Below, in pieces: positions 3,400 through 58,884 of a stretch of DNA of 64,000 bases (within the stretch, counting starts at the first letter, position 1; each line of letters starts with the position of its first letter). Below the pieces are notes generated by a model. The model was not told the DNA's origin and ran no database searches. It saw only the letters and a list, made by a program, of their open reading frames with translations. The position numbers and the translations under genes are program-made. Source of the stretch: Ectothiorhodospiraceae bacterium (GTDB lineage: Bacteria; Pseudomonadota; Gammaproteobacteria; Nitrococcales; Aquisalimonadaceae); NCBI GenBank assembly GCA_020831885.1, contig JAFIFU010000008.1, forward strand, positions 1-64,000, in the 5' to 3' direction.

Positions 3400-4197
3400 C
3401 TATACGGTGGCTGTCACCAGCGGGGTTGGTGTGATAAGGCCGGATGACAGGCGGCAGTGACCACCCTCCACAGCCAAGACCCCGACACAATCCTTGGTGG
3501 GTTGCAGCTCTCGAAGGGACCAGCCGGCGGCGGCTGCGGCCTCCGGGTTCTCCATGTGCTGGTGTGCCTCATGGGTTGCAAGCGGTGTCTCGACGCCTTT
3601 CAACTCATCGCGCAAACCGTGTCCCATGGCCTTCGCGTACGCTTCCTTCCCGGTCCAGTATCGCAGGAACAGTGTCGTATAGTGGTGTGGATCGATTGCA
3701 AGCAACACCGACTGCTGGTGGGGTGAAAACCATTCGCTGGCAATGGATTCCGCCTCGGGTACCGGGCGCAGCATTTCCAGGTCCACACCGATTCGGCGTC
3801 CTCGCGCCAGTGCGTACAAGGCGAGACCGCGGGAGTAAGAGCTGTTGAATCGCAGCGGCGGGTTGCCCGAAGGCGTCGCCAGCTCCGGCTTGCCCGAGTC
3901 CCCGTAACGTAGGCGGATCGAACCGGGTTCGACGCTCAGATAGCCCGCAAGCAGCCGTCGCAGAAGGCCTCTGGCGATGATGAACCGTCGCTGGCGCTGT
4001 TCGAGGACATAGGTTCCTGCACGCCGGACCTCGTCGGGTGACAGGCTGGCGGAAAGCGCTGCCACCGGCCAGGACGGATGGTCCAACTCCGCGAGCCAGA
4101 TGTGCACTTGGTCGGCGCCCAGCTTCCAGGTCGGAGCCGGGCATTGCGTTGTGCCTCCATGGTAGGCGATGTCGAGACTGGATGAGCCCACGTTCAC
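3400..4197 (-). CDS. Sfp-type 4'-phosphopantetheinyl transferase
   Basis: A protein of about 265 residues that should convert apo-ACP and apo-PCP domains to holo form by adding the CoA phosphopantetheine arm. The two family motifs are present: RRIGVDLEMLRP (about 136-147, Mg/CoA-binding Asp and Glu) and WTGKEAYAKAMGHGL (about 180). The upstream motif usually FNLSHS reads FNSSYS here, so the usual His is Tyr. Start: GTG at 4197 overlaps the TGA of the PKS-NRPS as GTGA, which fits translational coupling; a TTG at 4227 is an alternative. The direct coupling implies a dedicated partner for the ACP and PCP of the upstream megasynthase. Confidence 0.92.
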   Translation of the reverse strand: MNVGSSSLDIAYHGGTTQCPAPTWKLGADQVHIWLAELDHPSWPVAALSASLSPDEVRRAGTYVLEQRQRRFIIARGLLRRLLAGYLSVEPGSIRLRYGDSGKPELATPSGNPPLRFNSSYSRGLALYALARGRRIGVDLEMLRPVPEAESIASEWFSPHQQSVLLAIDPHHYTTLFLRYWTGKEAYAKAMGHGLRDELKGVETPLATHEAHQHMENPEAAAAAGWSLRELQPTKDCVGVLAVEGGHCRLSSGLITPTPLVTATV

Positions 4198-7100
4198 GTT
4201 GTCACCAGGTTGAGCCTCTCGAGGCAAGCGGCAAGCTGCCGGGCCACCGCCGCCACGTTCGGTGGGTGCAGCATGGTGTGGTGATTCCCCGGAATGATGT
4301 GGCGGCTAACACCTCCCCGGGCCAGTGCTTCCCAGCCCGGCCCGTTTCCGATAGCGCTTGCGCGGGACTGCTCCGCGGTCAGCAAGGTGATTGCTCCGCC
4401 GTAGGGCCGCGGTGTGTACCCATGCATCGCCCGGAGGTTGTTGATGAAAACGTCCAGTTGGCGCTGTAGGTCCGCGAGGCCCAGATCAGGCGGCACCAGG
4501 CCAGACCCTCGCACCAGATCCAGGACGGTGCGGAGCTGAGCGTTCAGATCAAGTTGTCGGAATGCCTCCGGGGAGACGCTCAGATCGTCTGGGGACAATC
4601 CCAGGTGTTGGATGAAACTGATCAGCACGTCGGGCCGGCCGTCCCCTTTGTCGCTTTCCCGAGAGATGGATGCGGGGGCGTCCAGCAGGGCCAGGAGCGA
4701 CACCTCGGCGCCCCGTTTTTCCAGCTGACGGGCCATTTCGAAAGCGATCACCCCGCCCATGGACCAGCCCCCCAGCAGATAGGGCCCCTCCGGCTGGATG
4801 CGCCGTAGCGCTTCGATGTAGCGATCGGCCATGGCTTCAATCCGCTGATCCGGGGTATCGCCGATCAGGCCGGCCGCCTGCAAGGCGTAAACGGGATGAT
4901 GCTCGCCCAGGGCCCGCGCGAGTTCCACGTAGCAGTACACGGTGCCGGTAACCGGGTGCATCCAGAAAAATGGTTGTCCGCTGCCGCGGGACTGGATCGT
5001 GACCACGGGCGTTGGCGTGGCATTCCCGGGTGCCCGCAGCAGACAGGCGAGCCGTTCGATGGTGCGGCCCTCGATCAGGGTGGAGACCGGAATATCCCGC
5101 GCGAAGCTCTGCTGCATTCGGGCGATCACCCGCATGGCCATCAGGGAATGGCCGCCAAGGGCGAAAAAGTCATCCGTGACCCCGATGCCGCGTCCGGGAA
5201 AGAATGCTTCCCAGATGCGCTGCAGCTCCAGTTCCACGGCATCACGGGGGGCGACCTGAGGCTTCGTCCGTGCGGGTGGCGTATGCCCTGTCAGCCGGGC
5301 CCGATCCAGTTTCCCTCGCTCCGTGCGCGGCAGGGCGTCCAGCACCGTCACGTGGGTGGGGGTCATGTAAGGGGGAAGGCGGTCGGCGGTATACTGTTGC
5401 AGTTCCTCCGCAGTGACGGAGCCGGGTGCGGCAACGAATGCCTCCAGCCGAAGATCACCGCATGCCGCTGACCGGGGTATCACAACCGCTTCCCTGACAA
5501 CGGGAAACCCCATCAGCACCCCTTCGATCTCCTCGGGTTCAACGCGTTGCCCCCGGATTTTCAACTGTCGGTCGGTGCGACCGATGAACACCAGCGTCCC
5601 GTCCGGCCGCCAGTACACCCGATCCCCGGTTCGGTAGATCCGCTGTCCGGGGAGAAACGGGTTCGGGATGAACCGTTCCGCCGTCAGATCCGGCTGGTTG
5701 AGATACCCATGGGCCAGACCGGTTCCCCCGATATACAGTTCGCCGGGGGCGCCCACGGGTACGGGCTGGAGTCGGGCATCAAGGACGTAGACGCGGCTGT
5801 TGGCGATGGGCCGCCCGATGGGTACGGGGGTCGTCGAATCATCCCTCCGGCATGTCCAGTAAGTGGCGTCAATCGTCGTTTCCGTAGGCCCGTACAGTTG
5901 ATGCAGGGCTGCCGGCAGTTTCGACAGGCATCGGTTCTGCAACGCGGTCGACAGCGGTTCCCCGCCGCAGAACACGTGTTGCAGGTGTCCGCAGTGCGCG
6001 ATATCGGGTAATTCGAGCAGCGTGTCCAGCACCGCAGGCACCACCTGCAGCACGGTCACCCGGTGCTCCCGGATCAGCCGCAGCAGCAGCGTGCCCTCGC
6101 GTTCGGCCTCCGGTGGGGGCACCACCAGCCGTGCCCCCGCCGAGAGGGGACCGAACAGCTCCCAGACCGAGGGGTCGAAACCCGGAGGCGTCCGCAGCAG
6201 CACGGCATCCGTCCCGTTCAGCGGGAAAGCATGCTGCCGCCAGCGCACCTGGTTGCAGATTGCGCGGTGGGGGACCATCACACCCTTGGGCGCTCCGGTG
6301 GAGCCCGAGGTGAAGATCATATAGGCCGGGTCGTCGGCACCGGATTCACCGGCAGGTCTTTCCGCCGACTGATTGGCAATCAGCGCCTGGTCGCCCAGGT
6401 CCACGACAGTGGCATTGCCCGCCGCCAGTCCCTGGGGCAACGGCCCTCGGGTGATGAGTGCTGGCGGTCCCGCATCGGCGAGCATCGCCGTCAGGCGCGT
6501 TGCCGGGTGGGATGGATCCAGGGGCAGGTATACGCCCCGGGCCTTGAGCACGGCAAGGGCAGCGATGACCGTCTCCGGCGAATGGTGCAGACACACGGCG
6601 ACGGGGCGATGCTGCCCCACGCCGAGATTGACGAGATGATGGGCGAGCTGGTTCGCACGGTGGTCCAGCTCACGGTAGCTGAGTTCGTGCGTGCCACAGA
6701 CCACAGCCGGGGCGTTCGGGCTGCGATCCACCTGGGCCTCGATCAGCCGTTGCAGGCAGGTTTCACCGCCGAATTCGATGTCCGTGACGTTCCACCGCAC
6801 GATGACCTGGTCCCGCTGATCACCGGTGTAGAGCGGCAAGGCGGAGATCGCCTGATCCGGGTCCGACAGCGCGGCCTGAAGCAGGTTGCGCAGGTGCTCA
6901 ATCATCCATTCCATTGTGGCGCCGTCGAAGCGCTCGGCGTTGTACTCCAGCGTCCCGCTGATCTGCTCTCCATCGTCCAGCAGCAACATGAGGTCCGTCG
7001 CCGCGGTTCCGCTTTCCACGTCCACCGGACGCAGATCAAGCCCGGCCACCCGCAGTTCGGGAACCCGTGCGTTATGCAGCACCAGCATTGCCTGGAACAG

Positions 7101-10100
7101 CGGGTTCCGGCCGCCGTCCCGCTGCGGCTTCAGCGCCTCCACGACGCGGTCGAAGGGAACGTCCTGGTGTGTGAAGGCTTCAAGCGCGGTCTGTTTCACC
7201 TGTTGCAGCAAGGTACGGAAGCTTGGCCCACCGGACAGATCGCAACGCAGAACCAGCGTGTTCATGAAGCAGCCCACCACTGCTTCGTTACCGGGCTGTG
7301 AGCGGGAGGATGCCGCCGTGGCCACGCAAATATCCTCGTCCCCTGAATAGCGGTGCAGCAGTGTCTGGAACGCCGCCATCAGGGTCATGAACAGCGTCAC
7401 GCCCTCGCCCTGACTGAAGGTCCGCAGCGCTGCGGAGAGGTCGCGGGAGAGGGTGAACCGGCGATGGCCGCCGAGCACAGCGCCCCGTCCGGTGGAGGAT
7501 GCCGCCGAGGGGATCCCCAGGCCGGGCGGCGCATCCGCCAGTTGCCGCTTCCAGTATGCGAGTTGGGCATCGGCCACCCCCTGGTCCGACTGCGACTGCT
7601 GCTGAATGTGGTCCAGATAGCTTGTAGGCGGCGGCGAGAGCGGCGAAGGCAGGTCACGGGAGAACGCCTCGTACAGTACCGCCATCTCACGTACCAGCAG
7701 GTTCATCGCCCAGGCGTCTGCGGCGATGTGATGCACGATCAGAAGAATGACGTGTTCCTGCTCGTCCAGCCGGAACAGGGTCACGCGCATCATGGGCCCC
7801 TGACCCAGATCGAACGGGCGCTGAATCTCCTCGGTGAGCAGCTGGTTCAAGGCCGTCTCGCGTTCTGCGGCCGGTTGCATAGCTAGATCCACCACGGGCA
7901 GCGTGGCCGGTTGAGGGGGGGCGAAGCACTGCATCGGCGTGCCATCGACTTCATGGATTTCCGCGCGCAGGAGCGCGTGGCGATGCAGCAGCTCGGTCAG
8001 GCTGCGCTCGAGGGCGGACACGTCGAGCCCGCCGGACAGGCGTGTTGCCACCGCAATGTTGTACGCGGCGTTCCCCGGGTGCAGGCGGTCGAGATACCAG
8101 AAGCGTTGTTGCTCGAAGGACAGGGGATGATCCACGGTCGGCTCCGCCGCCACCGTGGGTTCCGTCGGTGCCCCGGCATCCCCGGATGTGTCCAGTGCCA
8201 GTTGCTCCAGCAATTTTTCCGCCAGTTCCGCGCTGCTGCTTCCCTGAAGAATGGCCACCACCGGCACCTTGATGCCCAGGTCCACCTTTACCGCGGCGCC
8301 CAGCTCCACGGCCATCAGGGAGTCGAAACCCAACTCCGTGAACGGGCGCGCCGGATCAACTTTCTGCGGGGTGGTACCCAGCACGCGCGCGACCTTGTGG
8401 ACCAGGTAGTCCGTCAGAATGCCACTGCGCTCTGAGGGTGCCGCATGACGTAGCGAGCCTAGCGGTGAATCGGGGTTCTCGCCGGCTTCGCCCGGGCTCT
8501 CGGTGCCGGCTGTTCCCGCCATGGCCTCGAATCGCCGGGAACCCGCTGCCAACGGGTTGAACGCAGTCCATGCGGTCCAGTCCATCCCCGCGGCAATCAC
8601 GTGGTCGAAGTCGTGATGCAGCAGCTGATTCAGCGTGTCCAGCGCCTGCTCCGCGAGAAACGGCCGGAATCCGGCGCGGGCCAGGTACTGCGCGAGCTCG
8701 TCATGGCGGGAGACATAGCCCACATCCGCCAGCGCCCCCCAGGCGATGGTCAGCGCCGGAAGCCCCCGGGCTCGGCGATGGGCAGCCAGGGCATCCAGAA
8801 ACGCATTGGCCGCCGCGTAATTGCCTTGCATCGGATGGCCCAGTACGGCGGCGATGGAGGAGAACAGGACAAAGAAGTCCAGATCCTCGGCGGAGGTCAG
8901 CTGGTGGAGGTTCCACGCGCCGGCCACCTTGGGGGCAAGCACACGGTGGAATCGCTCCTGGTCCAGGCGTACCAGCACGTCGTCGTCCAGGACCATGGCC
9001 GCATGAATGACCCCCCTGAGCGGCGGCAGCTTGTTGCGAATCAGTTCGACCACACGCTGAATATCGGCCGCGTCGGAGACGTCCCCCTGCACCAGTGTCA
9101 CCTGGCAGGACGACGCCCGCAGCGCCTCGAGCGCCGCTTCGTTGTCCTGCGGTATGCCCGAACGGCTCATGAGCACGATGTTTCCGGCGCCCTGGCGCCC
9201 CAGCCACGCTGCAACGGTCAGTCCGAATCCGCCAAGTCCTCCGGTGATCAGGTAGGTGCCGTCCTGCCGGACCGGGGATGCGTCCGGGCGCGCGTGGACG
9301 GGGTACGCCTGTTCCTTGACGGTCAGCACCACCTTGCCGATATGCCTGGCCTGGGCCATGAGTCGAAAACCCTGTTCCGCCTCGGCCAGATCGAAAGCCG
9401 TCACGGGCACCGGTTGCAGCGAGCCCTCCGCGATCCGGGAAACCACGTGCTCCAGCAGTTGGGTTGCCAGCGCCGGTCGATCCAGCGCCAAGGGGATCAG
9501 GTCAACGGCGTGGAATGAGAGGTTGCGCTGGAACGGCAGCAGTCCCAACTGGGCATTCCCGAAGATGTCGCGTTTGCCGAGTTCGATGAACCGCCCGTAG
9601 GGGCGCAGAACGTCCAGGCCCTTGAGCATGGCCTCCCCGGACAGGGCGTTAAGGACCACATCCACGCCCTCACCGTCGGTATCGCGCAATATCTCCTCGG
9701 CGAACGCGAGTGAGCGCGAATCCATGACATGCTCCACGCCCAGCTCCCGAAGATGGGCACGCTTCTCCGGTGTGCCGGCCGTGGCGAAGACCTGGGCGCC
9801 GACACGCTGGCAGAGCTGAATGGCGGCGAGCCCCACCGCGCCAGTGGCTGACTGGATCAACACGCGTTCGCCTGCGGTGATCCGGGCCACGTGATTGAGG
9901 GCATACTCCGCCGTGACGAACCCGTTCAGCACCGAGGCCGCTTCGGCGAACGACAGGCATCCGGGTTTGGCGACAGTGAGATGCTCCCGGGCGATGACGC
10001 TCGCGCCGTGGGCGGCTGCGGCAAGCGTGATGACTTCGTCTCCTGCCTGAAACCGCTGGATACCCTCGCCGCAGGCCAGCACCACGCCTGCGCATTCGAT

Positions 10101-13100
10101 CCCCAGGCCCTGCGGATCCGGATCATACTGGTAGGCGGCCGCAGGCAGCATGTCCAGGGCCTGGAGTACGTCACGGAAATTGACACCGGAGGCGACCACC
10201 TGAATGGCCAGTTCCCCCGGTCCGGGTTCGGCCACCGGGATCTCGCGCAGGAGCAGGCTTTCGATGGCGCCGGGGGTGCCCACCTCAAGGCGAAACCCGC
10301 CGGCGTCCGGCCGAACCGGGTGCACCGCTTCCGGCCGCGCGTGCTCGGCGAGGGTGACTCGCCGCAGGCGGCGGACAAACCGTGCGCGACCACGGAGCGC
10401 CACTTCCTCTTCCGGGTCGCCGGCGGATAGTTCCGTAGCCAGGGCTTGCGTTTCCTCAACTGAGACTGTCGGGGCCAGGTCGATCAACCGGCAGCGGGAC
10501 GCGTCGTGCTCGCTCATCAGCACGCGTCCCAGACCCCACAGTGGCGACTGCGTGATGTGCGGCGCGGCATCGTGACCTTCCACGGCCTGCGCCCCGGCGG
10601 TAACCAGACACAGTTCGCCGATCCGGATGCCAGCCGCATCCTCCGCCTGCATCAGCGCCAGAACGCTCCCACAACCAAGGCGCTGGGCATCCATCACGGC
10701 CGCCGCATCCAGGTCGTCACTCGGCCCGTTGTTGAGGCTCCACAGGTGCAGGACACCGTGGATTCCGTCCTCCCGCAGTGCCTCCAGCATACGGGCGTAG
10801 GCGGCTGTATCCAGCGGTGGAATGATGAAGCTGCCGTCCTCCTGCTGCCGATACGTGTCGCCTGGGCACACCGGAGTGCAGCGATCGCCGCGGGCCTCCA
10901 GGGCTTCGATGATGCCGGGTGTCGGGGCGGTATGATCGGTGAACACGAGCCAGTGCCGCCGTGTTTCATGCCCCGCCGCCGGCAATGGCGTCTCGGCTTC
11001 CGCCGGTGCCTGCGCGAGCACGACGGCCTGCAGCCTGCGATTGTCGGGCGGGTCGTCCAGCAGGCACCTCACGTCCTCAAAGCCGGTTGCCTCCAGCAGC
11101 GAGCGCCATTGCTGCTGTTCCAGCATCGGGCCGCCCGCCCGCAGGTCCACGTCCGTGTATCGCCACCAGCCGTCCAGCAGTCCGAACACGAGATTGAGCC
11201 AGACGGATCGCCGGGTCAGCTCCAGCATGGCCAGTAGTCCGTTGGCGACCAGCAGTTGCCGGGTGTGGGCGAGCGTGGTGCGTAGATCGGCGGTGACGTG
11301 GAGGACATTCGCGGCGATCACCAGATCGAAGCTGCCCGGCTGGAATCCCTGGTTCGCCGGGTCGGCTTCGATGTCCAGCGTGGTGAAACGCATCCCCGGC
11401 CGATCTCCGAAACGGGCCCGGGCTTCGTCGAGGAAATGAGGGGAGACATCGGTAAACGTGTACTCGGCGGAATCGGGCAGCAACGGGAGAATTGTCTCCG
11501 TCGCCGCGCCGGTCCCCGCACCGATCTCCAGCACGCGCAGGGGTGCAGCGTCATCCTTGCTCTCCACCGCCGCGGCAACGGCGTCGGCAAGGAGCTGATG
11601 GTAGGTACTGCACGGCGGGCTCCTGGTGTAGAAGCGGGCCAGCAACTCCAGCGCGTCCTCGGTCAGCAACACTTCCCGGGCATCCAGCTCGCCGCGGAGA
11701 ATCGCTGCCAGATGCGTGCCTCCACGGCGCAGCAGCTCGGCTTCGGCGGCGTACTTGGGCTCGGTCCCCATCAGTTCATCCATCAGCCCGTGCAGCGTCG
11801 CCCGATCCCGGGAAACCGGCTCAGGTCCGCCGTGCCCGGTCTCGTCCGGCTCCTGAGCCAGGGTCAGCAGCGCCGCGAACAGGCGCCGGTGTCGCGGCAC
11901 CACCCCCAGAGAATCCGCCACGGTGTCGGTGGGCAGGGCCAGATCACGATCGGGAATCCACCCCAACTCATCCAGGGCGGCAAGCGTGTATCCCCGGGCC
12001 ACGCGATTGACCCAGGGTTCCACCGTGTCCAGGTAGCGGGCGACATCCGGCAAAGCTTCCGGTGGACCGTGATCGGCCGCGATTGCGGCGGCGATCTCGG
12101 CGACGGAGCGTAGCGGGGCGACATGGTCCCCAGGCGCAGCACCGGAGCGGCGCTCTTCCCAGCGCCATTCGTAGAGCCAGTCGTCGATACCCGGCGGGCC
12201 GGAAGCTTGCTCCTCTTCCAGAACCCGCAGGCGCAAGCCCTCCAGCGCAACGGCGAGGTCGCCGTTCTCGTCCATGAGCCATGCATCACCCTCCATGTCA
12301 TCGACCCGTCCCTCCTTGCCATGGCGGATGACAACATGGGCCCAGAAGTGTGCTCCGGGGCTATGGAAGAACGTGAGCCGGCGAACGGAAACCGGAAAGA
12401 ACGCCGCATCGGTCTGCGTCCTGGCGCCGGTGCGCGTGCCGAGGGCGCCGAACAACTGGATCGTGCCGTCCAGCAGGGCGGGATGAATCCGGTACGGGTC
12501 CACCGGGAGATTCACGTCCGGGGGGAATCCGATGCGTGCCAAGGCACCGTCCGGGCCGACCCAGATCTCCTGCAGCGTGCGGAACGCTGCGCCAAAACGG
12601 TAGCTGCGTTGTTCCAGGAAGTCGTAGTGGTCCTGCGCGGGAAACGGAGTCGTGCATCGTGTCTTCAGGGTCTGCAGGTCCGGCGCAGCAGAGGAAGTCG
12701 TTTTGTGCGGGCTGAGTCTCGCGCTGGCATGCAGATTCCAGGACACACTGTCGTCCGGCGGGCTTCCGTGGATTTCCACCACGGAATCCCTGGCCTGGTA
12801 ATGGAACTGCACCAGATCCTCGCCCGGATGGTTGAGAAACAGGAGCTTGCTGAACTGAACATCCGTCAGGCTCACCGGTACATCACCCCAGAGCTCCCGT
12901 CCGGCTGCCAGCGCCATCTCGATGTAGCCCGCACCGGGGAACAGCACGGCGCCGTGAATCACGTGGGCGTCGAGATAGCCACTTTTCGGCGCGTCCAGAG
13001 TCACTTCCCAGGAGGGCTGGGCGGACGGGAGGCGACGACCCAGCAGGGGATGGCCGGTTTCAATGCCGGCGAGGCGAGGCCGCAGTTGTTTCGAATCCTC

Positions 13101-15746
13101 GCCCATGTCATACCAGTGGCGTTCGCGTTGCCACGGATAGGCCGGCAGCGTTACGCAGCGTCCAGCAGGATACAGGCTGGACCAGTCCACCGGACGGCCG
13201 CGTACATGCATGGCCGCCAGGCTCCGGAGCATGGTCAGCCGCTCATCGTCACTGCGTCGCAAGCTGGGCAAGACTGTGGCAGCATCCCGCCCGTGTTCCG
13301 CCAGGTTCTCCGTGAGCGCGCCCGCCAGCACCGGGTGAGGCCCAAGCTCGACGAACAACTCGCAACCGTCCTCGATCAGCCGTCTCACGGCTCCGGCGAA
13401 CTGCACGGGTTGACGCACGTTGCGCCACCAGTAGCCGGCGTCCAGCGGTACCCCATCTGCCCAGTCGCCGGTGGCAGTGGACACCAGCGGTATCTCGGGT
13501 GCCTGCGGCTCCAGACCGCCCAGGGCATCCAGCAGCTCTTCCCGGATCAGTTCCATCTGCGGCCCGTGATAGGGAACCTGAACGGGAAGGAACCGGCCAA
13601 ACCGCTGCTGCTCCGCGAGCACTCGGGCAACGTGCTCCAGTGCGGCTTCGGTGCCGGAGAACGTCACCGATTCCGGTCCGTTGATCGCCGCCAGGGAGAG
13701 TGTGTGCTCATGGCCCGCCATCACATGCGGAGCCTCGTCGGCGGATAGCTGCGCCGCAAGCATGCGACCGCTGCCGGTTGTCCGGTGCTGGAGACGACCG
13801 CGATGGTAGGCCAGCAGCACTGCATCGGGAAGCATCAAGGCACCCGAGACACAGGCCGCGGCCATTTCGCCGGAACTGTGGCCCACCAGGGCGTCAGGAA
13901 CCACGCCCCAGGACCGCAAGAGCGCGGCGAGTGCTACCTGTATCGCAAAGTTCGCCACATGTGCGCGATCGGCATCTGCGATGCGGGACGTCTGCTCGTC
14001 CCGTGACAGCTCCTCGAGCAGCGACCAGCCGGCTAACGGCTGCAGCAGAGCATCCACCTCCTCAAGGCTGCGCCGGAACACGGGCTCCTGCTCCGTGAGC
14101 TGTCGGCCCATTCCCCACCATTGCGGTCCCATGCCGGGAAACACGAAAGCCAGTCGGGGCGCGTGTCCCTTCAGTGCATGGCCCACCGCGTATGCGGGCC
14201 TATTTTCCCCGGCCAGAAACGCGTCCAGACCGGCGATGGTCTCCTCCGTGGATCGGGCCACCACCGCCAGCCGTTCCGCACGGTGGCTGCGTCGCCGGGC
14301 GGCCGTATAACAGACATCGTGCAGCGTCTCCGCGCCGTTCCCCTGAAGGTGTTCGCGATAGCGGTGCACCGATTCCCTGAGTGCGTTGGGGGTGTGCGCG
14401 GAGATGGTCAGGATCTGTTCGCGGTCCGGGTCGGTTGCCGGATGCGGTACGGACGGTGTCGGCGGCGCCTCGAGCACAACGTGGGCGTTGGCACCACCGA
14501 ATCCGAACGAGTTGACGCCGGCCAGGGCGCGCCCGTTCGTGTCCGGCCACGGTTCGAGTTGGGTAGGCACGCGCAGTCCCAGGGTATCGAACGGAATCTC
14601 CGGGTTGGGTTCGGCGAAATGCAGGTTCGGCGGAATCTGTCGGTGCTCCAAGGCCAGTGTCGCCTTGATCAGGCCGGCCATCCCAGCGGCCGCCTCCAGA
14701 TGCCCCAGGTTGGTTTTCACCGATCCCAGCAGGCAGTGGCCGAGATCACCCCGATCAGTGCCGAGCACGCGGCCAATGGCCTCCGCCTCCACCGGATCCC
14801 CTGCCGGTGTGCCCGTACCATGGGCCTCGACGTACTGCACGTCTCCCGGTGCCACACCGGCGTGGCGGAGGGCCTGCCTCAGCATGTCCGCCTGGGCAGT
14901 GGCACTCGGCAGACTCAGTCCCGTGGTGCGCCCATCCTGGTTCACCGCGGTGCCGCGAATGACGGCGTGAATGGGGTCTGCATCCGCCAACGCCTGAGCC
15001 AATGGCTTCAGGATGACGACGCCGGCTCCCTCGCTGCGAACGTAACCATCGGCGCCGGCATCGAAGGCTCGGCAGCGACCGTTGGGCGACAGCATCGAAG
15101 CCTTGCAGAATCCCATCGTGACTTCGGGTGCCAGCAGCACGCCGACGCCACCGGCGATGGCGAGGTTGCATTCACCGGCATCCAGACTGCGGCAGGCCAG
15201 GTGGACGGCGGTCAGCGAGGAGGAACAGGCGGTGTCGACGGAGAAGCTCGGCCCTCGCAAATCCAGCAGATAGGAGACGCGATTCGCCGAGATGCAAGCC
15301 GCCGTTCCGGCATTCACATGCGCGTCGATCCGATGCCGGTTGTGGGGCAGCACCTGGATATCCACGTAGTCGTGGGTCGAGATGCCCACGAAGACACCGG
15401 TGTTGCTCCCGGAAAGTCTGTCCGGAACCTGACCGCCGTTCTCAAGCGCCTCCCAGACAACCTCGAGCAGGACGCGCTGCTGCGGATCCATGCGGCGCGC
15501 CTCACGGGGTGCGATGCCGAAGAAATCGGCATCGAATTCCTCAACCTGGTCTAGGAAACCGCCCCAGCGCGTGTAGATTTTGCCGGTGGCGGCGGGGTCG
15601 GAATCGAACAGCTCATGCAGATCGAACCGATCCGCAGGCAACTCCGTGACGGCATCCTCCCCGTTACGTAACAGCGTCCAGAACGCTTCCGGCGAGTTGG
15701 CCCCACCCGGGAATCGGCAGCCGATCCCGACAATCGCGATGTCCAT
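4194..15746 (-). CDS. Hybrid type I polyketide synthase - nonribosomal peptide synthetase (one PKS module, one NRPS module, thioesterase)
   Basis: A 3850-residue megasynthase. Domains (approximate residues): KS 1-425 (DTACSSS Cys near 170, HGTGTPAGDP, KTNLGH); AT 525-830 (GHSSGE; VPYH at the HAFH/YASH selectivity site); DH 895-1190 (HVIHGAVLFP and LLDGTIQ); C-methyltransferase with LEIGAGTGAATE near 1405; ER 1825-2135 (SATGAVG); KR 2160-2345 (TGGLGGFG, LDD motif of B type, catalytic S-Y-N); ACP 2435-2510 (LGFDSLMAVE); C 2540-2950 (HHIAADA, last Gly of HHxxxDG is Ala); A 3005-3475 (IFTSGSTGAPKG); PCP 3495-3565 (LGGHSLM); TE 3590-3845 (GWSMGG, His in GNHHTM). The by-eye A-domain code is D-P-W-Q-F-G-L-I-D-K, close to a Gln code. 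Expected product: a reduced, alpha-methylated acyl chain joined to one amino acid and released by the TE. There is no loading module. ATG 15746 has GGAGG 7 nt upstream; a GTG lies at 15749. Confidence 0.95.
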   Translation of the reverse strand: MDIAIVGIGCRFPGGANSPEAFWTLLRNGEDAVTELPADRFDLHELFDSDPAATGKIYTRWGGFLDQVEEFDADFFGIAPREARRMDPQQRVLLEVVWEALENGGQVPDRLSGSNTGVFVGISTHDYVDIQVLPHNRHRIDAHVNAGTAACISANRVSYLLDLRGPSFSVDTACSSSLTAVHLACRSLDAGECNLAIAGGVGVLLAPEVTMGFCKASMLSPNGRCRAFDAGADGYVRSEGAGVVILKPLAQALADADPIHAVIRGTAVNQDGRTTGLSLPSATAQADMLRQALRHAGVAPGDVQYVEAHGTGTPAGDPVEAEAIGRVLGTDRGDLGHCLLGSVKTNLGHLEAAAGMAGLIKATLALEHRQIPPNLHFAEPNPEIPFDTLGLRVPTQLEPWPDTNGRALAGVNSFGFGGANAHVVLEAPPTPSVPHPATDPDREQILTISAHTPNALRESVHRYREHLQGNGAETLHDVCYTAARRRSHRAERLAVVARSTEETIAGLDAFLAGENRPAYAVGHALKGHAPRLAFVFPGMGPQWWGMGRQLTEQEPVFRRSLEEVDALLQPLAGWSLLEELSRDEQTSRIADADRAHVANFAIQVALAALLRSWGVVPDALVGHSSGEMAAACVSGALMLPDAVLLAYHRGRLQHRTTGSGRMLAAQLSADEAPHVMAGHEHTLSLAAINGPESVTFSGTEAALEHVARVLAEQQRFGRFLPVQVPYHGPQMELIREELLDALGGLEPQAPEIPLVSTATGDWADGVPLDAGYWWRNVRQPVQFAGAVRRLIEDGCELFVELGPHPVLAGALTENLAEHGRDAATVLPSLRRSDDERLTMLRSLAAMHVRGRPVDWSSLYPAGRCVTLPAYPWQRERHWYDMGEDSKQLRPRLAGIETGHPLLGRRLPSAQPSWEVTLDAPKSGYLDAHVIHGAVLFPGAGYIEMALAAGRELWGDVPVSLTDVQFSKLLFLNHPGEDLVQFHYQARDSVVEIHGSPPDDSVSWNLHASARLSPHKTTSSAAPDLQTLKTRCTTPFPAQDHYDFLEQRSYRFGAAFRTLQEIWVGPDGALARIGFPPDVNLPVDPYRIHPALLDGTIQLFGALGTRTGARTQTDAAFFPVSVRRLTFFHSPGAHFWAHVVIRHGKEGRVDDMEGDAWLMDENGDLAVALEGLRLRVLEEEQASGPPGIDDWLYEWRWEERRSGAAPGDHVAPLRSVAEIAAAIAADHGPPEALPDVARYLDTVEPWVNRVARGYTLAALDELGWIPDRDLALPTDTVADSLGVVPRHRRLFAALLTLAQEPDETGHGGPEPVSRDRATLHGLMDELMGTEPKYAAEAELLRRGGTHLAAILRGELDAREVLLTEDALELLARFYTRSPPCSTYHQLLADAVAAAVESKDDAAPLRVLEIGAGTGAATETILPLLPDSAEYTFTDVSPHFLDEARARFGDRPGMRFTTLDIEADPANQGFQPGSFDLVIAANVLHVTADLRTTLAHTRQLLVANGLLAMLELTRRSVWLNLVFGLLDGWWRYTDVDLRAGGPMLEQQQWRSLLEATGFEDVRCLLDDPPDNRRLQAVVLAQAPAEAETPLPAAGHETRRHWLVFTDHTAPTPGIIEALEARGDRCTPVCPGDTYRQQEDGSFIIPPLDTAAYARMLEALREDGIHGVLHLWSLNNGPSDDLDAAAVMDAQRLGCGSVLALMQAEDAAGIRIGELCLVTAGAQAVEGHDAAPHITQSPLWGLGRVLMSEHDASRCRLIDLAPTVSVEETQALATELSAGDPEEEVALRGRARFVRRLRRVTLAEHARPEAVHPVRPDAGGFRLEVGTPGAIESLLLREIPVAEPGPGELAIQVVASGVNFRDVLQALDMLPAAAYQYDPDPQGLGIECAGVVLACGEGIQRFQAGDEVITLAAAAHGASVIAREHLTVAKPGCLSFAEAASVLNGFVTAEYALNHVARITAGERVLIQSATGAVGLAAIQLCQRVGAQVFATAGTPEKRAHLRELGVEHVMDSRSLAFAEEILRDTDGEGVDVVLNALSGEAMLKGLDVLRPYGRFIELGKRDIFGNAQLGLLPFQRNLSFHAVDLIPLALDRPALATQLLEHVVSRIAEGSLQPVPVTAFDLAEAEQGFRLMAQARHIGKVVLTVKEQAYPVHARPDASPVRQDGTYLITGGLGGFGLTVAAWLGRQGAGNIVLMSRSGIPQDNEAALEALRASSCQVTLVQGDVSDAADIQRVVELIRNKLPPLRGVIHAAMVLDDDVLVRLDQERFHRVLAPKVAGAWNLHQLTSAEDLDFFVLFSSIAAVLGHPMQGNYAAANAFLDALAAHRRARGLPALTIAWGALADVGYVSRHDELAQYLARAGFRPFLAEQALDTLNQLLHHDFDHVIAAGMDWTAWTAFNPLAAGSRRFEAMAGTAGTESPGEAGENPDSPLGSLRHAAPSERSGILTDYLVHKVARVLGTTPQKVDPARPFTELGFDSLMAVELGAAVKVDLGIKVPVVAILQGSSSAELAEKLLEQLALDTSGDAGAPTEPTVAAEPTVDHPLSFEQQRFWYLDRLHPGNAAYNIAVATRLSGGLDVSALERSLTELLHRHALLRAEIHEVDGTPMQCFAPPQPATLPVVDLAMQPAAERETALNQLLTEEIQRPFDLGQGPMMRVTLFRLDEQEHVILLIVHHIAADAWAMNLLVREMAVLYEAFSRDLPSPLSPPPTSYLDHIQQQSQSDQGVADAQLAYWKRQLADAPPGLGIPSAASSTGRGAVLGGHRRFTLSRDLSAALRTFSQGEGVTLFMTLMAAFQTLLHRYSGDEDICVATAASSRSQPGNEAVVGCFMNTLVLRCDLSGGPSFRTLLQQVKQTALEAFTHQDVPFDRVVEALKPQRDGGRNPLFQAMLVLHNARVPELRVAGLDLRPVDVESGTAATDLMLLLDDGEQISGTLEYNAERFDGATMEWMIEHLRNLLQAALSDPDQAISALPLYTGDQRDQVIVRWNVTDIEFGGETCLQRLIEAQVDRSPNAPAVVCGTHELSYRELDHRANQLAHHLVNLGVGQHRPVAVCLHHSPETVIAALAVLKARGVYLPLDPSHPATRLTAMLADAGPPALITRGPLPQGLAAGNATVVDLGDQALIANQSAERPAGESGADDPAYMIFTSGSTGAPKGVMVPHRAICNQVRWRQHAFPLNGTDAVLLRTPPGFDPSVWELFGPLSAGARLVVPPPEAEREGTLLLRLIREHRVTVLQVVPAVLDTLLELPDIAHCGHLQHVFCGGEPLSTALQNRCLSKLPAALHQLYGPTETTIDATYWTCRRDDSTTPVPIGRPIANSRVYVLDARLQPVPVGAPGELYIGGTGLAHGYLNQPDLTAERFIPNPFLPGQRIYRTGDRVYWRPDGTLVFIGRTDRQLKIRGQRVEPEEIEGVLMGFPVVREAVVIPRSAACGDLRLEAFVAAPGSVTAEELQQYTADRLPPYMTPTHVTVLDALPRTERGKLDRARLTGHTPPARTKPQVAPRDAVELELQRIWEAFFPGRGIGVTDDFFALGGHSLMAMRVIARMQQSFARDIPVSTLIEGRTIERLACLLRAPGNATPTPVVTIQSRGSGQPFFWMHPVTGTVYCYVELARALGEHHPVYALQAAGLIGDTPDQRIEAMADRYIEALRRIQPEGPYLLGGWSMGGVIAFEMARQLEKRGAEVSLLALLDAPASISRESDKGDGRPDVLISFIQHLGLSPDDLSVSPEAFRQLDLNAQLRTVLDLVRGSGLVPPDLGLADLQRQLDVFINNLRAMHGYTPRPYGGAITLLTAEQSRASAIGNGPGWEALARGGVSRHIIPGNHHTMLHPPNVAAVARQLAACLERLNLVTT

Positions 15747-15806
15747 CACCGCACCTCCAGGCCCGGCCAGAGGCCGGAGCCTGGCCCCGGTCGCTGGCCG
15801 AGTGCA

Positions 15807-16337
15807 TCAGCGGCACCTGTAGCTCAGGGTATAGGTCAGGAACGGACCTTCCTGGCTGACGATGCCGTGACCCGTGGCATGCAGCGAATTCGCCGCGTTT
15901 CGGATGACCCGCACAGTGGATTCGGTAACCGGTGCTGGGCCACCCACACCCTTTCCGGACAGCCCCAGGGTGACAGAGTGCACGGCGTTGCCGCATCCCT
16001 CGATGGTTCCGGTGAATTGCATGACGCCACCGAACGTCACATCGCCATTGCGTTTGACTGTGCCGGTAACATCCTGCACGAATTCTCCCGTCAGCGTGCC
16101 TTCGACAACGCCGGTGATGGTTCGCGCCTGATGGGAGTTTCCGCCGGTTTCCCTGAGCACCTCGATCTCGATGTTCATGATCATACCGGTACCGCCGCCC
16201 TCAAGCGCTGGTCCGGCATGTGGAGGGCCGGCATGGGCCGGCGGACCGGCGGTGGCCGCGGACACCAGCAGTACGGACAGTGCCAGGGTCAAGGTAGTCT
16301 GGACGAGGATGGATGCGCTGCGTCGTTCGGGGATCAT
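15807..16337 (-). CDS. Secreted protein of unknown function, first gene of the PKS-NRPS operon
   Basis: A 176-residue protein with a clear signal peptide (basic MIPERRS start, hydrophobic stretch to about residue 31, cleavage likely after AHA near 36). The mature part is Gly/Thr/Val rich with alternating polar and hydrophobic residues (for example TGVVEGTLTGEFVQDVTGTV), suggesting a beta-barrel or beta-sandwich. It has two cysteines (EGCG and the C-terminal YRCR) that could form a disulfide. I do not recognise the family. A strong ribosome site (AAGGAGG) supports the start. It ends about 60 bp before the megasynthase on the same strand, so co-transcription is likely; a role in product handling is only a guess. 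Confidence 0.8.
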   Translation of the reverse strand: MIPERRSASILVQTTLTLALSVLLVSAATAGPPAHAGPPHAGPALEGGGTGMIMNIEIEVLRETGGNSHQARTITGVVEGTLTGEFVQDVTGTVKRNGDVTFGGVMQFTGTIEGCGNAVHSVTLGLSGKGVGGPAPVTESTVRVIRNAANSLHATGHGIVSQEGPFLTYTLSYRCR

Positions 16338-25099: not shown

Positions 25100-26347
25100 A
25101 TGTCACCACCCAGTCCCCTGCTGAGATGGTTGCTTCCGCTACTGATCGTGATCGTTACCGTGGTTCTGGTTGCCGCGCTGATGGGGTCTCGACCACAGCC
25201 CGAGCCTCAACCCCTGGAGGAGCGCGCCTGGCCGGTGGCGGTGCAGACCGCGGAGTTGGGGGATTATCGGCCCATCGTCCGCCTGCAGGGCTTTCTCGAG
25301 TCCCCGGCACTGGTTACCGTGGTCGCCCCGGTGGAGGCGGATGTCCTGGCCGTTCCCCGTCTTGAGGGGGAACGGGTGGGCGCGGGGGAACTGCTGATCC
25401 GGCTGGATGAGGATGATCTGCGGCTGGTGCTCGCGGAACGGGAGGCGGAACTGGCGGAGCTGCGCCAGCAGCGCCGGATCGAAGAGCAGCGTTTGCGGTC
25501 CGATCGCGGCGAGCTGGCGTTGGAGCAGCAATTGCTGACACTTACCCGGCGGGAGGCGCAGCGTCTGCGGGAGCTGGCCGGGGAACAGTTCGTCTCGCCG
25601 TCCGCCCTGGAGCGTGCGGAGCTGGAAACGACCCGGCAGGAGTTGGCCGTGAGCGCGCGTCGGTTCGCCGTGGATACCGGGCAGGCGCGACTGGATCAGC
25701 TTGATGCCCGCATGGCGCGGGCGGAAGCGTTGCGTGACCGGGCGGCCCTCAACCTTGCCCGCACCCGGCTGCAAGCACCCTTCGACGGGCGTCTTGCGGA
25801 GGTGATGGTGGCAGCCGGGGATCGCGTCCGTCCCGGCGAGCCGCTGGTGCGCCTCTACGATTCCGAACGCCTGGAAATACGCGTCACCATTCCCCGTGTC
25901 TATCTGTCCCGCATCCGCGATGCCCAACAGACCGAAGCGCTGCGGGCCCGTGTCCACATAGACGGACAGGTGTTTCCGGCCAGCCTGTCCCGGTTTGCAG
26001 GGCGCGCAGAGCGCGGCCAGGGTGGCGTGGATGCCTTGTTCCGGCTGCAGGATGCCGGCGAGGATCCGGTTCTGGGCCGTTTCGCCGAGCTGGAGCTGGG
26101 TCTACCGGTCGAGACCGGCACGGTGCTGCTGCCGTTCGAAGCCCTGTATGACACGGCGCGCGTTTACCGCGTGGAAAACGGGCGCCTGCGTGCGCTGGAT
26201 GTTGAACGCCTGGGTGACGCGCGGTTTCCGGACGGTCGCCGGGGGGTGCTGGTGCGCTCCGATGCCCTGGCCGACGGCGACCGCATCGTGACCACCCAGC
26301 TTGCCCAGGCCATGGACGGGCTCCGTGTTCAGGTGCTGGAGAACTAG
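25100..26347 (+). CDS. RND efflux periplasmic adaptor (membrane fusion protein)
   Basis: A 415-residue HlyD/AcrA-type adaptor that would bridge the inner-membrane pump encoded 3 nt downstream to an outer-membrane channel. One N-terminal membrane anchor (about residues 9-29, no lipobox Cys), then lipoyl half-motifs around a long alpha-hairpin (about 105-215, Arg/Glu/Leu-rich), the second lipoyl half ARTRLQAPFDGRLAEVMVAAGDRVRPGEPLVRL, and a beta-barrel. No outer-membrane factor gene lies nearby, so a shared TolC-type channel is likely. Confidence 0.9.
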   Translation: MSPPSPLLRWLLPLLIVIVTVVLVAALMGSRPQPEPQPLEERAWPVAVQTAELGDYRPIVRLQGFLESPALVTVVAPVEADVLAVPRLEGERVGAGELLIRLDEDDLRLVLAEREAELAELRQQRRIEEQRLRSDRGELALEQQLLTLTRREAQRLRELAGEQFVSPSALERAELETTRQELAVSARRFAVDTGQARLDQLDARMARAEALRDRAALNLARTRLQAPFDGRLAEVMVAAGDRVRPGEPLVRLYDSERLEIRVTIPRVYLSRIRDAQQTEALRARVHIDGQVFPASLSRFAGRAERGQGGVDALFRLQDAGEDPVLGRFAELELGLPVETGTVLLPFEALYDTARVYRVENGRLRALDVERLGDARFPDGRRGVLVRSDALADGDRIVTTQLAQAMDGLRVQVLEN

Positions 26348-26350
26348 GCC

Positions 26351-29300
26351 ATGAAGGCGGAAGCCGGTAACGGATCCTGGCTGTCCTGGGTCGCACGGCA
26401 CCCGGTGGCAGCCAATCTGATCATGCTGCTGATGCTGGTTTCCGGGCTCTGGTCTCTGCAGCAGCTCAACACCCAGTTTTTCCCCACCTTCGAGCTGGAT
26501 TTCGTCACCGTCACCGTGGAATGGCGAGGCGCGTCAGCGGAGGATGTGGCCGACACCATCACGTCTCCCCTTGAGGATGAACTGCGCGACCTGGACGGCT
26601 TGCGCACGCTGACCTCGGTCAGCCGGGAGGGCAGCACCACCATTGTGGTGGAGCTGCAGGAGGGCACCGACATCGCCCAGGCCACCGAGTCCATCAAGGA
26701 TCGCGTGGCGCGGGTACGCAATCTGCCGGAGGATGCGCGGGAACCCACCATCAGTCGCGTGACCCGCTACGATCCGGTGGCCCGTCTGCTGGTGACCGGT
26801 GATCTGAATACCCGGGAAGTCCGGGAGTTGAGTCGCCAGCTCGAGGAGGAATTGCTGGATGCCGGGGTGACCCGGGTGGAGATCACCGGTCTGGCGGAAC
26901 AGGAGATCAGCATCGAGATCTCCCAGGAACGTCTGACCGACCTGAACCTGTCCCATGAACAGCTCGCCCGGTTGGTGGCCGGCCAGAGCCGCGACCTGCC
27001 GGCCGGTGATGCGGGGGATGCGGACGTGGCGCGGCAGATCCGGGTGCTGGACCAGGCGAGGACGGCCGGGCAGTTCCGGGAGCTGCAATTGCCCCTGGAG
27101 GGTGGCCGCAGCGTGCGTCTGGGAGATCTGGCGGACGTGCGCCAGCAGGCCCGGGACAACCAGGTGCAGTTGGCGCTGCATGACAGCGACGTGGTGGAGA
27201 TCCTGGTCCAGCGCGCGGAGCAGGAAGACGCGCTGGCCGCGGCCCGGGTGCTGGACGATTACCTGGCGGAGCGCCGCCCGACGCTGCCGCCAACGGTCCA
27301 CCTGGAAGTGTTCGACGAATTCTGGCTGTTCATCAGCGAGCGCATCCAACTGCTGCTGAAGAACGGCACCGGCGGGCTGCTACTGGTGATTGCGGTACTG
27401 ATCACCTTTCTGTCGGTGCGCATGGCCTTCTGGGTGACGCTGGGCATCCCGGTGTCCTTTCTGGCCGCGCTGACCGTCCTGTTCTTCACCGGCGGCAGCA
27501 TCAACATGATGAGCCTGTTCGCCTTCATCATGGCGCTGGGCATCATCGTGGACAATGCCATTGTGGTGGGTGAGAACGCCTACAGCCGCCTACAGAGCGG
27601 GGAGGCGCCGGCGGATGCGGCGGTCAACGGCGCGCGGCGCATGTTCGAGCCGGTCATGGCCGCCTCGCTCACCACCATCGCGGCGTTCCTGCCACTGATG
27701 ATCATCGGCGGCCCCATCGGCAATATCCTGTTCGATATTCCTCTGGTCATCGTCTGCGTGATCATCGCTGCCATCATCCAGGCCTTTCTCATTCTCCCCG
27801 GCCACCTGCGGCGTTCCTTCGAGCGGGGTCACCGGCACCAGCCGGGGCGGTGGCGGCAGCGGGTGGACGGCGCCTTCAACCGCTTTCGCGACGGCCCCTT
27901 CCGCCGTGCCGTGGAACTGGCGCTGGCTTATCGCTGGGCCGCGTTGATGCTACCCGTGGCGCTGCTGGTTCTGGCCTTCTCGCTGGTGCCGTCCGGTCGT
28001 CTGGCGTTCACCTTTTTCCCCAGTGTGGAGGGAACCATCGTTCACGCCAACGTGGCGTTCTCCCCCGGAACACCGCGGGAACGGGTCCAGACCTATCTGG
28101 ATGAACTGGAGCGTGCGCTGAAGGAAGTGGACGCGGAGGCCGGCGGTGTGGTGCAGACCTATGTGCGGAACACCGGTCGGACCGTTGCCGCGGACCCCAG
28201 CGACCAGCGCCAGGGTGAGCATTTCGGCGCCATCTTCGTCGAACTCAGTTCACCGGATCAGCGCAGTCTGCGTAACCGGGAGTTCATCCGTGCCTGGGAG
28301 GCACGTACCCCCCCGGCGCCGGGCCTGGAATCCCTGGTGATCCGTGAGCGGGGCACGGGGCCGCCGGGGGCGGATATCGATGTGCGCCTGACCGGCGCTG
28401 CCCCGGAACAGCTCAAATCCGCCGCGCTGGAACTGCAGGACTATCTCCGACAGATCGAGGGCGTGTCGGGGATCACGGATGATCTGCCGTTCGGCCCGGA
28501 GCAGTGGATCTACCGGGTGAACGCGGAAGGGCGCGCGCTGGGCCTGAGCTCCGCGGAAATCGGTACCCAGCTGCGCAACGCCTTTGCCGGCAGCCTGGTG
28601 CAGATCTTCCAGCACCGGCGCGATGAGATCGAGGTCTGGGTTCGGCTGCCGGAGGTGGAGCGGGACCGGCTGGCCAGCCTGTTCGATTTCCGCATCCGGC
28701 TGACGGACGGACGCATGGTACCGCTGGAGAATGTGGCCGATGTGGAAAGCCGGCGCAGTTTCGCCTCTCTGCGGCATTTCGACGGCCGCCTGGCGGTCCG
28801 TGTCAGTGGGGATGTGGATGCCCAGGTGGCCAATGCGAACCGGATACTGGCAGACCTGGAGGCCACGCTGCTGCCGGAACTCCGGGACCGGTACGGCCTG
28901 CAGACCGCCTTCGAGGGCCGGGCGGCGGATCAGGAGGAGACACTGGCGGACATGCGCACCGGTCTGTTCCTGGCCATGGCGCTGATCTACCTGATCCTGG
29001 CCTGGGTGTTCGGCTCCTATGGCTGGCCGCTACTGGTGATGGCGGTGATTCCCTTCGGTATTGTCGGGGCCTTTTTCGGCCACTGGCTGTTCGGGCTTGA
29101 TCTCACCATCCTGTCCCTGTTCGGGCTGTTCGGCCTGTCCGGTATTGTGGTCAACAATTCCATCATCCTGGTGACCTTCTACCGGGAGATCCGGGACGAG
29201 AACCCCCAGTTGCCGGTGGAAACGGCCCTGGTGGAAGCGTCACGCTTGCGGCTGCGCCCGGTGCTGGTCACGACACTGACCACCATTGGCGGCCTCCTGC

Positions 29301-29479
29301 CGCTGATCTTCGAGACCTCGGTGCAGGCCCAGTTCCTGATCCCCATGGCCATCGCCATCGCCTTTGGCCTTGCAGTGGCCTCGCTGCTGGTGTTGTTTCT
29401 GGTGCCGGCACTGTTGTCCGTATACGAGAATGCGGTGCGCCGGTTCCAGCCGGTGCCGCGTACGTACAATCACCAGTAA
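26351..29479 (+). CDS. RND family efflux pump inner-membrane transporter
   Basis: A 1042-residue proton-driven exporter of the AcrB superfamily with the expected duplicated architecture: TM1 near residue 20, large periplasmic loop, a block of helices from about 335 to 480, TM7 near 535, a second loop, and helices after 870. The N-half motif MALGIIVDNAIVVGENA keeps one Asp where AcrB has Asp-Asp; the second position is Asn. The C-half has FGLFGLSGIVVNNSIILV. Substrate cannot be read from sequence. It forms an operon with the adaptor (3-nt gap). Confidence 0.92.
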   Translation: MKAEAGNGSWLSWVARHPVAANLIMLLMLVSGLWSLQQLNTQFFPTFELDFVTVTVEWRGASAEDVADTITSPLEDELRDLDGLRTLTSVSREGSTTIVVELQEGTDIAQATESIKDRVARVRNLPEDAREPTISRVTRYDPVARLLVTGDLNTREVRELSRQLEEELLDAGVTRVEITGLAEQEISIEISQERLTDLNLSHEQLARLVAGQSRDLPAGDAGDADVARQIRVLDQARTAGQFRELQLPLEGGRSVRLGDLADVRQQARDNQVQLALHDSDVVEILVQRAEQEDALAAARVLDDYLAERRPTLPPTVHLEVFDEFWLFISERIQLLLKNGTGGLLLVIAVLITFLSVRMAFWVTLGIPVSFLAALTVLFFTGGSINMMSLFAFIMALGIIVDNAIVVGENAYSRLQSGEAPADAAVNGARRMFEPVMAASLTTIAAFLPLMIIGGPIGNILFDIPLVIVCVIIAAIIQAFLILPGHLRRSFERGHRHQPGRWRQRVDGAFNRFRDGPFRRAVELALAYRWAALMLPVALLVLAFSLVPSGRLAFTFFPSVEGTIVHANVAFSPGTPRERVQTYLDELERALKEVDAEAGGVVQTYVRNTGRTVAADPSDQRQGEHFGAIFVELSSPDQRSLRNREFIRAWEARTPPAPGLESLVIRERGTGPPGADIDVRLTGAAPEQLKSAALELQDYLRQIEGVSGITDDLPFGPEQWIYRVNAEGRALGLSSAEIGTQLRNAFAGSLVQIFQHRRDEIEVWVRLPEVERDRLASLFDFRIRLTDGRMVPLENVADVESRRSFASLRHFDGRLAVRVSGDVDAQVANANRILADLEATLLPELRDRYGLQTAFEGRAADQEETLADMRTGLFLAMALIYLILAWVFGSYGWPLLVMAVIPFGIVGAFFGHWLFGLDLTILSLFGLFGLSGIVVNNSIILVTFYREIRDENPQLPVETALVEASRLRLRPVLVTTLTTIGGLLPLIFETSVQAQFLIPMAIAIAFGLAVASLLVLFLVPALLSVYENAVRRFQPVPRTYNHQ

Positions 29480-53672: not shown

Positions 53673-53887
53673 AACGGCACCGACCAGCCGTCCCGTGTAG
53701 GTAGGCTGTGCAAGCTCCGGTTGGCAGCGGGACCAAGAGGCAAGTGTTTCGAGGCGATCGACATGGAATCAGGATCGGACTGGGCCATTGCAGACGACGT
53801 CTCCCGGCGCCGATTTGATGCATCGTACCCAGCGCATCTGAGTCCTTGTCTCCGTCATTCGCCGGCCAGCTGGTCCGGAGCAGACCC

Positions 53888-58828: not shown

Positions 58829-58884
58829 ACGCGTCGATCGCATACCATCGCCCAGTTGGTCTTTAGGAAGGAGGTGGGATCGCC

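Follow-up and report, generated by a model that had tools for sequence, protein, structure and literature searches.

The hybrid synthase encoded in this genome of an Ectothiorhodospiraceae bacterium is a real and intact variant of the bacterial single-module PKS-NRPS, one that crosses phyla and is centred on soda lakes. Judged from sequence, it belongs to a cassette of three genes, which encode a small beta-barrel protein predicted to be exported, the synthase, and a 4'-phosphopantetheinyl transferase (PPTase) (Table 1). We propose, with a probability of about 0.6, that the three genes form a self-contained and horizontally mobile natural-product (lipid) cassette, whose iterative, reducing and C-methylating synthase would make a methyl-branched acyl-glutamine or a cyclised derivative of it. 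A preliminary description of the window (the whole stretch of 64,000 nucleotides that was analysed) had recognised the synthase, but had missed the coupled PPTase, the exported barrel, the glutamine-like adenylation code, the wider family and its spread across phyla.

Table 1. Genes of the cassette and domains of the synthase, in the order of transcription (window coordinates)
Feature	Position	Strand	Basis
176-aa predicted exported 8-strand beta-barrel protein (DUF3224/allene-oxide-cyclase-like fold)	15807..16337	-	two invariant Cys; upstream of synthase in relatives; model pLDDT 75
Hybrid synthase KS-AT-DH-MT-ER-KR-ACP-C-A-PCP-TE, 3,850 aa	4194..15746	-	ORF, Pfam domains, motifs kept in 8 full-length sequences
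KS domain, directly at N terminus, no docking extension	14466..15746	-	Pfam, motifs
AT domain, GHSSG and VPYH motifs like malonyl-using PTM synthases	13170..14162	-	Pfam, motifs
DH domain	12180..13067	-	Pfam, motifs
C-methyltransferase (MT) domain, nearest solved relative CurJ MT	11040..11612	-	Pfam, comparison
ER domain, between MT and KR	9318..10277	-	Pfam, motifs
KR domain, LDD (B-type) motif	8715..9287	-	Pfam, motifs
ACP domain	8190..8432	-	Pfam, motifs
C domain, HHIAADA motif	6795..8147	-	Pfam, motif
A domain, specificity code DPWQFGLID(K)	5280..6767	-	motif reading, alignment to solved A domains
PCP domain	5025..5237	-	Pfam, motifs
Thioesterase (TE) domain, GWSMGG	4206..4997	-	Pfam, motifs
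Sfp/HetI-type 4'-phosphopantetheinyl transferase	3400..4227	-	PF01648 and HetI model; homologue likewise placed in relatives

The reading frame of the synthase is uninterrupted from 4194 to 15749 on the minus strand and encodes 3,850-3,851 amino acids. It opens with GTG followed by ATG, of which the ATG at 15746 is the likelier start, and closes with TGA at 4196-4194. The E-values of its Pfam matches run between about 1e-97 for the KS and about 6e-11 for AMP-binding_C, and two PP-binding stretches are among the matches; the C terminus is a PF00975 thioesterase. The signature motifs are those of the KS (DTACSSS, HGTGT, NLGH), AT (GHSSGE), DH (HxxxGxxxxP and DxxxQ), MT (LEIGAGTG), KR (GGLGGFG, LDD, Y/N), the two carrier domains (DSL/HSL), C (HHxxxDA) and TE (GWSMGG and a His). 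Several relatives have HxxxD, or HxxxG with a variable tail, as the DH motif, and relative L038 has HHIAAET in its C domain. When species genomes were scanned, nine complete synthases proved to have this architecture (the window's own, L036, L038, L039, L040, L041, L045, L084 and L163), and eight of them, compared directly, are 47-75% identical. Because the same order recurs in eight further complete homologues, the order of the eleven domains, as far as sequence comparison goes, is not an assembly artefact. The earlier claim of a single polypeptide with this order is thus borne out by the frame, the Pfam order, the motifs and the homologues. The contig is of MAG type and ends 4.2 kb from the locus, as might be expected if the megasynthase were misassembled or non-functional, but the frame is intact, the signature motifs are present, and a genome of the same genus encodes a 75% identical full-length synthase, where the three genes are again together but have other neighbours. 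We consider this explanation very improbable.

No second PKS is present within the window, and the earlier statement that it holds no partner synthase extends to the genome (4.13 Mb in 129 contigs, 99.99% complete), in which there is no other type I KS. The remaining ketosynthase-family matches there are single-domain proteins of 401-435 aa, the size of FabF/FabB or of thiolases. The synthase is also the sole type I KS in six of the eight other genomes that have this or a related synthase. The only other C domains of the genome, two in number, are confined to an NRPS locus on contig C54 (L035, 8-24 kb). One protein of this locus is C-A-PCP with a luciferase-like monooxygenase inserted in the A domain, a second is C-A-PCP without the insertion, and the locus has its own PPTase. 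As a partner of the synthase it was rejected and judged to be a separate pathway. With no other type I KS and the C54 NRPS set apart, the idea that other PKS or NRPS genes work in line with the synthase finds no support. A genome of the same family, G005, has on contig C28, at about 87-122 kb, a modular PKS cluster with six KS, distinct from the single-module synthase.

The placement of the KS bears on whether the module is used repeatedly. In the KS tree, which like the C tree was built from non-fungal sequences sampled by similarity to the window, the synthase falls in a supported 15-member clade (support 97) of stand-alone synthases, and the PTM clade is separate (100). Its neighbours are the PTM synthases and other lone PKSs, and neighbouring groups also contain PKSs of myxobacteria similar to the iterative PKS of myxochromide. 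Acidobacterial members of the KS clade share the whole PKS core, which in two cases is followed at the end by a PlsC-type acyltransferase; a flavobacterial synthase just outside the clade (L048) has the core with a TE only. One PKS core is thus found with varied release parts and without partner PKSs, and therefore iterative synthesis of the whole acyl chain is the best explanation. The two acidobacterial fusions (L043, 7299-16664, and L044, 7898-18220), in which KS-AT-DH-MT-ER-KR-ACP is joined to the PlsC-type acyltransferase, are possible one-enzyme routes to methyl-branched acyl glycerolipids.

The suggestion of the preliminary description that the PKS may act iteratively is therefore strengthened: because the synthase is alone and its KS groups with stand-alone and iterative PKSs, it probably works in this way. 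Sequence cannot show iteration; an enzyme that extended an acyl-CoA starter just once would need identical domains. In such a scheme, the KS would take a preformed fatty acyl-CoA or acyl-ACP, extend and methylate it once, and hand it on to the amino acid, and every domain does fit one round. However, the cassette and the sampled flanks revealed no acyl ligase, FAAL, KSIII or docking domain (the KS begins at about residue 3, leaving no N-terminal docking domain), and the KS groups with stand-alone PKSs, some of them known to be iterative. The preformed starter that had been offered as an alternative to iteration is thus left unsupported, and we regard it as distinctly improbable.

Two kinds of known enzyme resemble the synthase. 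Fungal HR-PKS-NRPSs (PsoA, and LovB for the PKS part) share the order KS-AT-DH-MT-ER-KR-ACP-C-A-PCP and C-methylation. The likeness to fungal enzymes drawn earlier holds for this order but not for affinity or release. The fungal enzymes end in an R or Dieckmann R* domain, where the window synthase has a TE, and its KS-AT and MT are nearer bacterial proteins, as judged by score, fungal sequences being absent from the tree: with the KS-AT, MAS and CurL score above LovB and PsoA, and the MT matches CurJ at 5e-63 versus 2e-34 for LovB. The PTM synthases (HSAF/ikarugamycin) unite one PKS module, one NRPS module and a TE in a single bacterial polypeptide, as the window synthase does, and share VPYH in the AT and HHxxxDA in the C domain. 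They are iterative, but their architecture, KS-AT-DH-KR-ACP-C-A-PCP-TE, is without the MT and ER that the window synthase has with motifs intact. In the C-domain tree also, the window clade (100) is apart from the PTM clade (100), and the groups closest to it consist of later NRPS modules from loci of myxobacterial type. Because neither the KS nor the C domain falls within the PTM clades, and the KS-AT and MT are nearer bacterial enzymes, the scores and the trees of window-like, non-fungal sequences suggest that this PKS-NRPS arose by a separate fusion event.

The amino acid substrate was read from the A code, obtained by aligning to solved A domains. The code is DPWQ(F/I/L)GLID in eight of the nine complete homologues, while L039 differs at two more positions. 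D235, W239, Q278, G301 and I330 are invariant among the homologues read, and L322 and D331 nearly so, some relatives departing from the code at 299 or at 322/331. Codes listed for glutamine are DAWQFGLIDK (tyrocidine) and DAWQFGLINK (indigoidine), and the code of the synthase differs from known glutamine codes at one or two positions, having P instead of A at 236. The A domain therefore probably activates glutamine, although another polar amino acid is possible. PTM synthases use ornithine, against which DPWQFGLID, as a glutamine-like code, speaks by prediction.

From these features a route can be proposed. The coupled Sfp-type PPTase would activate the ACP and the PCP. The single PKS module would load acetyl or malonyl and carry out several rounds on its own ACP, extending the chain with malonyl-CoA, adding alpha-methyl branches by the MT with SAM, and reducing fully by KR-DH-ER. 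The AT has VPYH, as do malonyl-using PTM enzymes, and therefore the branches should derive from SAM via the MT. The outcome would be a methyl-branched acyl chain, saturated or mostly so; the DH motif varies in several relatives, and full reduction in each round is not guaranteed. The A domain would activate L-glutamine, and the C domain would couple the acyl chain to its amino group. The C motif, HHxxxDA, departs toward DA, yet PTM C domains have DA too. Finally, the TE would free the acyl-glutamine or a ring derived from it, for example a tetramate if the last beta-keto group stays unreduced. The most likely product, by domain content, is thus a TE-released methyl-branched acyl-glutamine, with a tetramate as the chief alternative. 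The product envisaged by the preliminary description, a reduced methyl-branched acyl-amino acid or a cyclised form of it, is supported.

Tetramates are common end products of fungal PKS-NRPSs, and the synthase could be of the PTM or fungal kind in this respect, skipping reduction in the last round and using its TE for Dieckmann cyclisation to a 3-acyl tetramic acid whose side chain derives from glutamine. The single-module PKS-NRPS-TE logic matches that of the PTM synthases, the HHxxxDA of the C domain is common to theirs, and the co-encoded barrel folds like the polyketide Diels-Alderases PyrI4 and AbyU. However, the C domain and the KS both fall outside the PTM clades, similarity of the TE to PTM TEs is about 30-35% and was detected in few of them only, and the barrel is predicted to be exported. 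PTM synthases adjoin cyclising oxidoreductases or a hydroxylase; none is beside the window synthase, and the flanks revealed no oxidoreductases of the PTM type. A dedicated tetramate synthase therefore seems unlikely, if still worth considering.

The genes on either side of the synthase recur with it. The PPTase can start at a GTG (4197) that overlaps the synthase stop as GTGA, and by this overlap it is predicted to be translationally coupled to the synthase. Its homologues lie directly downstream of the synthase wherever the contig extends, except at L041 and L045. The barrel gene ends 60 bp before the synthase start, and in the same-genus genome, Aquisalimonas, Nitriliruptoria and an Actinophytocola MAG (L045) a homologue of it immediately precedes the synthase. 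In two Trueperaceae, the barrel gene is swapped for the gene of an unlike protein, a predicted lipoprotein of 228 aa with the motif GGTGRFxGATGS (L038, 1111-1794; L050, 1-468), whose structure model has a pLDDT of 32. No accessory genes beyond the three were found in the sampled flanks, and the cassette itself includes no exporter or tailoring genes. The neighbours in the window are ilvD, a glutamine amidotransferase, a DUF1820 protein and a beta-lactamase-fold protein. The GC content of the cassette is 65-68%, the base composition is unremarkable, and an Rfam scan gave tRNA only.

The barrel protein has no Pfam or NCBIfam family match; a single homologue matches DUF3224 below the cut-off (E 0.034). 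Its N terminus resembles a signal peptide by eye, and the structure model has eight strands. The best Foldseek match of the model is 2q03 (E 5e-5), on which it superimposes with a Z of 17.9 and an rmsd of 1.9 over 128 residues; with 2ooj (DUF3224) the Z is 12.8, a likeness of fold only. The fold is also that of a Penicillium herquei enzyme (6jjs/6jjt), of allene oxide cyclases and of the Diels-Alderases PyrI4 and AbyU. A fold shared by a model is no proof of function. Speculatively, the exported barrel might bind or rearrange a hydrophobic product outside the cytoplasm. With the cassette thus comes a protein family predicted to be exported and to have a cyclase-type fold.

The role of the product can also be seen differently. 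The synthase could make a membrane or structural aminolipid, an acyl-glutamine that serves the envelope under high pH and salt, while the barrel would carry the lipid. Such a reading bears on role and can be compatible with the proposed acyl-glutamine pathway. Consistent with it, the PKS core has relatives that are fused to an acyltransferase of the glycerolipid type, the cassette is without exporter or tailoring genes, and the carriers are mostly soda-lake organisms. However, the distribution is patchy even within one family, unlike that of an essential lipid, and we hold an envelope role to be unlikely on balance.

The carriers are mostly soda-lake MAGs and come from Gammaproteobacteria (Ectothiorhodospiraceae/Aquisalimonas), Deinococcota (Trueperaceae) and Actinomycetota (Nitriliruptoria/Egibacter). 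Most of their names hold CSSed16, which denotes Cock Soda Lake sediment, or T1Sed, most likely Tanatar-1 sediment, both of the Kulunda Steppe. The synthase is present in 4 of the 14 genomes of the window's family and in 8 of 66 from the class to which the L084 genome belongs. Of 369 genomes sampled from the window's class, only the window's own has it; four more matches, 35-40% identical, are more distant. Outside the cassette the genes differ: the same-genus genome has a cytochrome oxidase, DctP and a D-serine dehydratase-like gene, Aquisalimonas a carbon-nitrogen hydrolase and an amine oxidase, and L084 DnaG and an M61 peptidase. Moreover, the actinobacterial synthases do not form one clade (AU p 9e-5, tree of 2,522 columns). 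Because flanking genes differ and the actinobacterial copies are not one clade, the cassette has probably moved between phyla. Most relatives being MAGs, misbinning could mimic transfer; the ilvD flanking the cassette in the window, however, shares 94% identity with the ilvD of the same-genus genome, which counts against misbinning. A search through ilvD and the glutamine amidotransferase found no clean empty site in the 14 family genomes, the two genes being on different contigs or far apart; in the same-genus genome ilvD sits at a contig end.

Iterative, programmed PKS-NRPSs with MT and ER are textbook fungal machines, and such proteins are hard to work with. In bacteria, a counterpart encoded by one gene, accompanied by a PPTase and known in nine complete natural variants, would make it possible to test in E. 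coli what governs chain length, methylation and reduction. That unrelated soda-lake bacteria have the cassette in common also offers a tangible example of a lipid or natural-product pathway that has probably passed between phyla in one extreme habitat. The preliminary description had not recognised a known cluster, and the open literature indeed gave no characterised match: no paper was found there on a bacterial KS-AT-DH-MT-ER-KR-ACP-C-A-PCP-TE protein, only fungal or host-engineering titles, and as far as that literature shows the synthase is uncharacterised. Other systems come near it in part. The Sup and Swf enzymes of sponge symbionts are lone single-module PKSs for which the synthesis of methyl-branched fatty acids has been proposed (PMC4245539, PMC9864124); they are likened here by description only, and the accessible portions of those papers describe no NRPS module for them. 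The myxochromide PKS, MchA, is a bacterial iterative type I PKS that feeds an NRPS (cited through PMC2636758). The Pyxidicoccus loci, by inference myxochromide clusters, encode the PKS and a multi-module NRPS as separate proteins in which no MT was found, whereas the window has a single protein with MT. A metagenome survey of 2023 (PMC10308959) reports an uncharacterised clade of monomodular 'PTM-like' KS from four phyla with KS-AT-DH-KR-ACP-C-A-PCP-TE; its accessible text does not mention the MT-ER form or the soda-lake group. More tentatively, and somewhat short of an even chance, the synthase may represent a third independent origin of the single-polypeptide iterative PKS-NRPS, besides the fungal and PTM ones, on a mobile three-gene cassette of haloalkaliphiles of three phyla, with a methyl-branched acyl-glutamine bound or cyclised extracytoplasmically by an exported barrel of the Diels-Alderase/allene-oxide-cyclase fold.

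Two other regions of the window may be mentioned. An HlyD-type adaptor and an RND efflux pump are encoded at 25100-29479, 9 kb upstream of the cassette, with no counterpart adjoining the cassette in the carriers examined. At 52044-61047, a TIR-like protein (542 aa; ThsB/PDC-S66-like) adjoins an nSTAND1 NTPase (1,660 aa; weak PDC-S60 match) and more large ORFs, a possible defence island.
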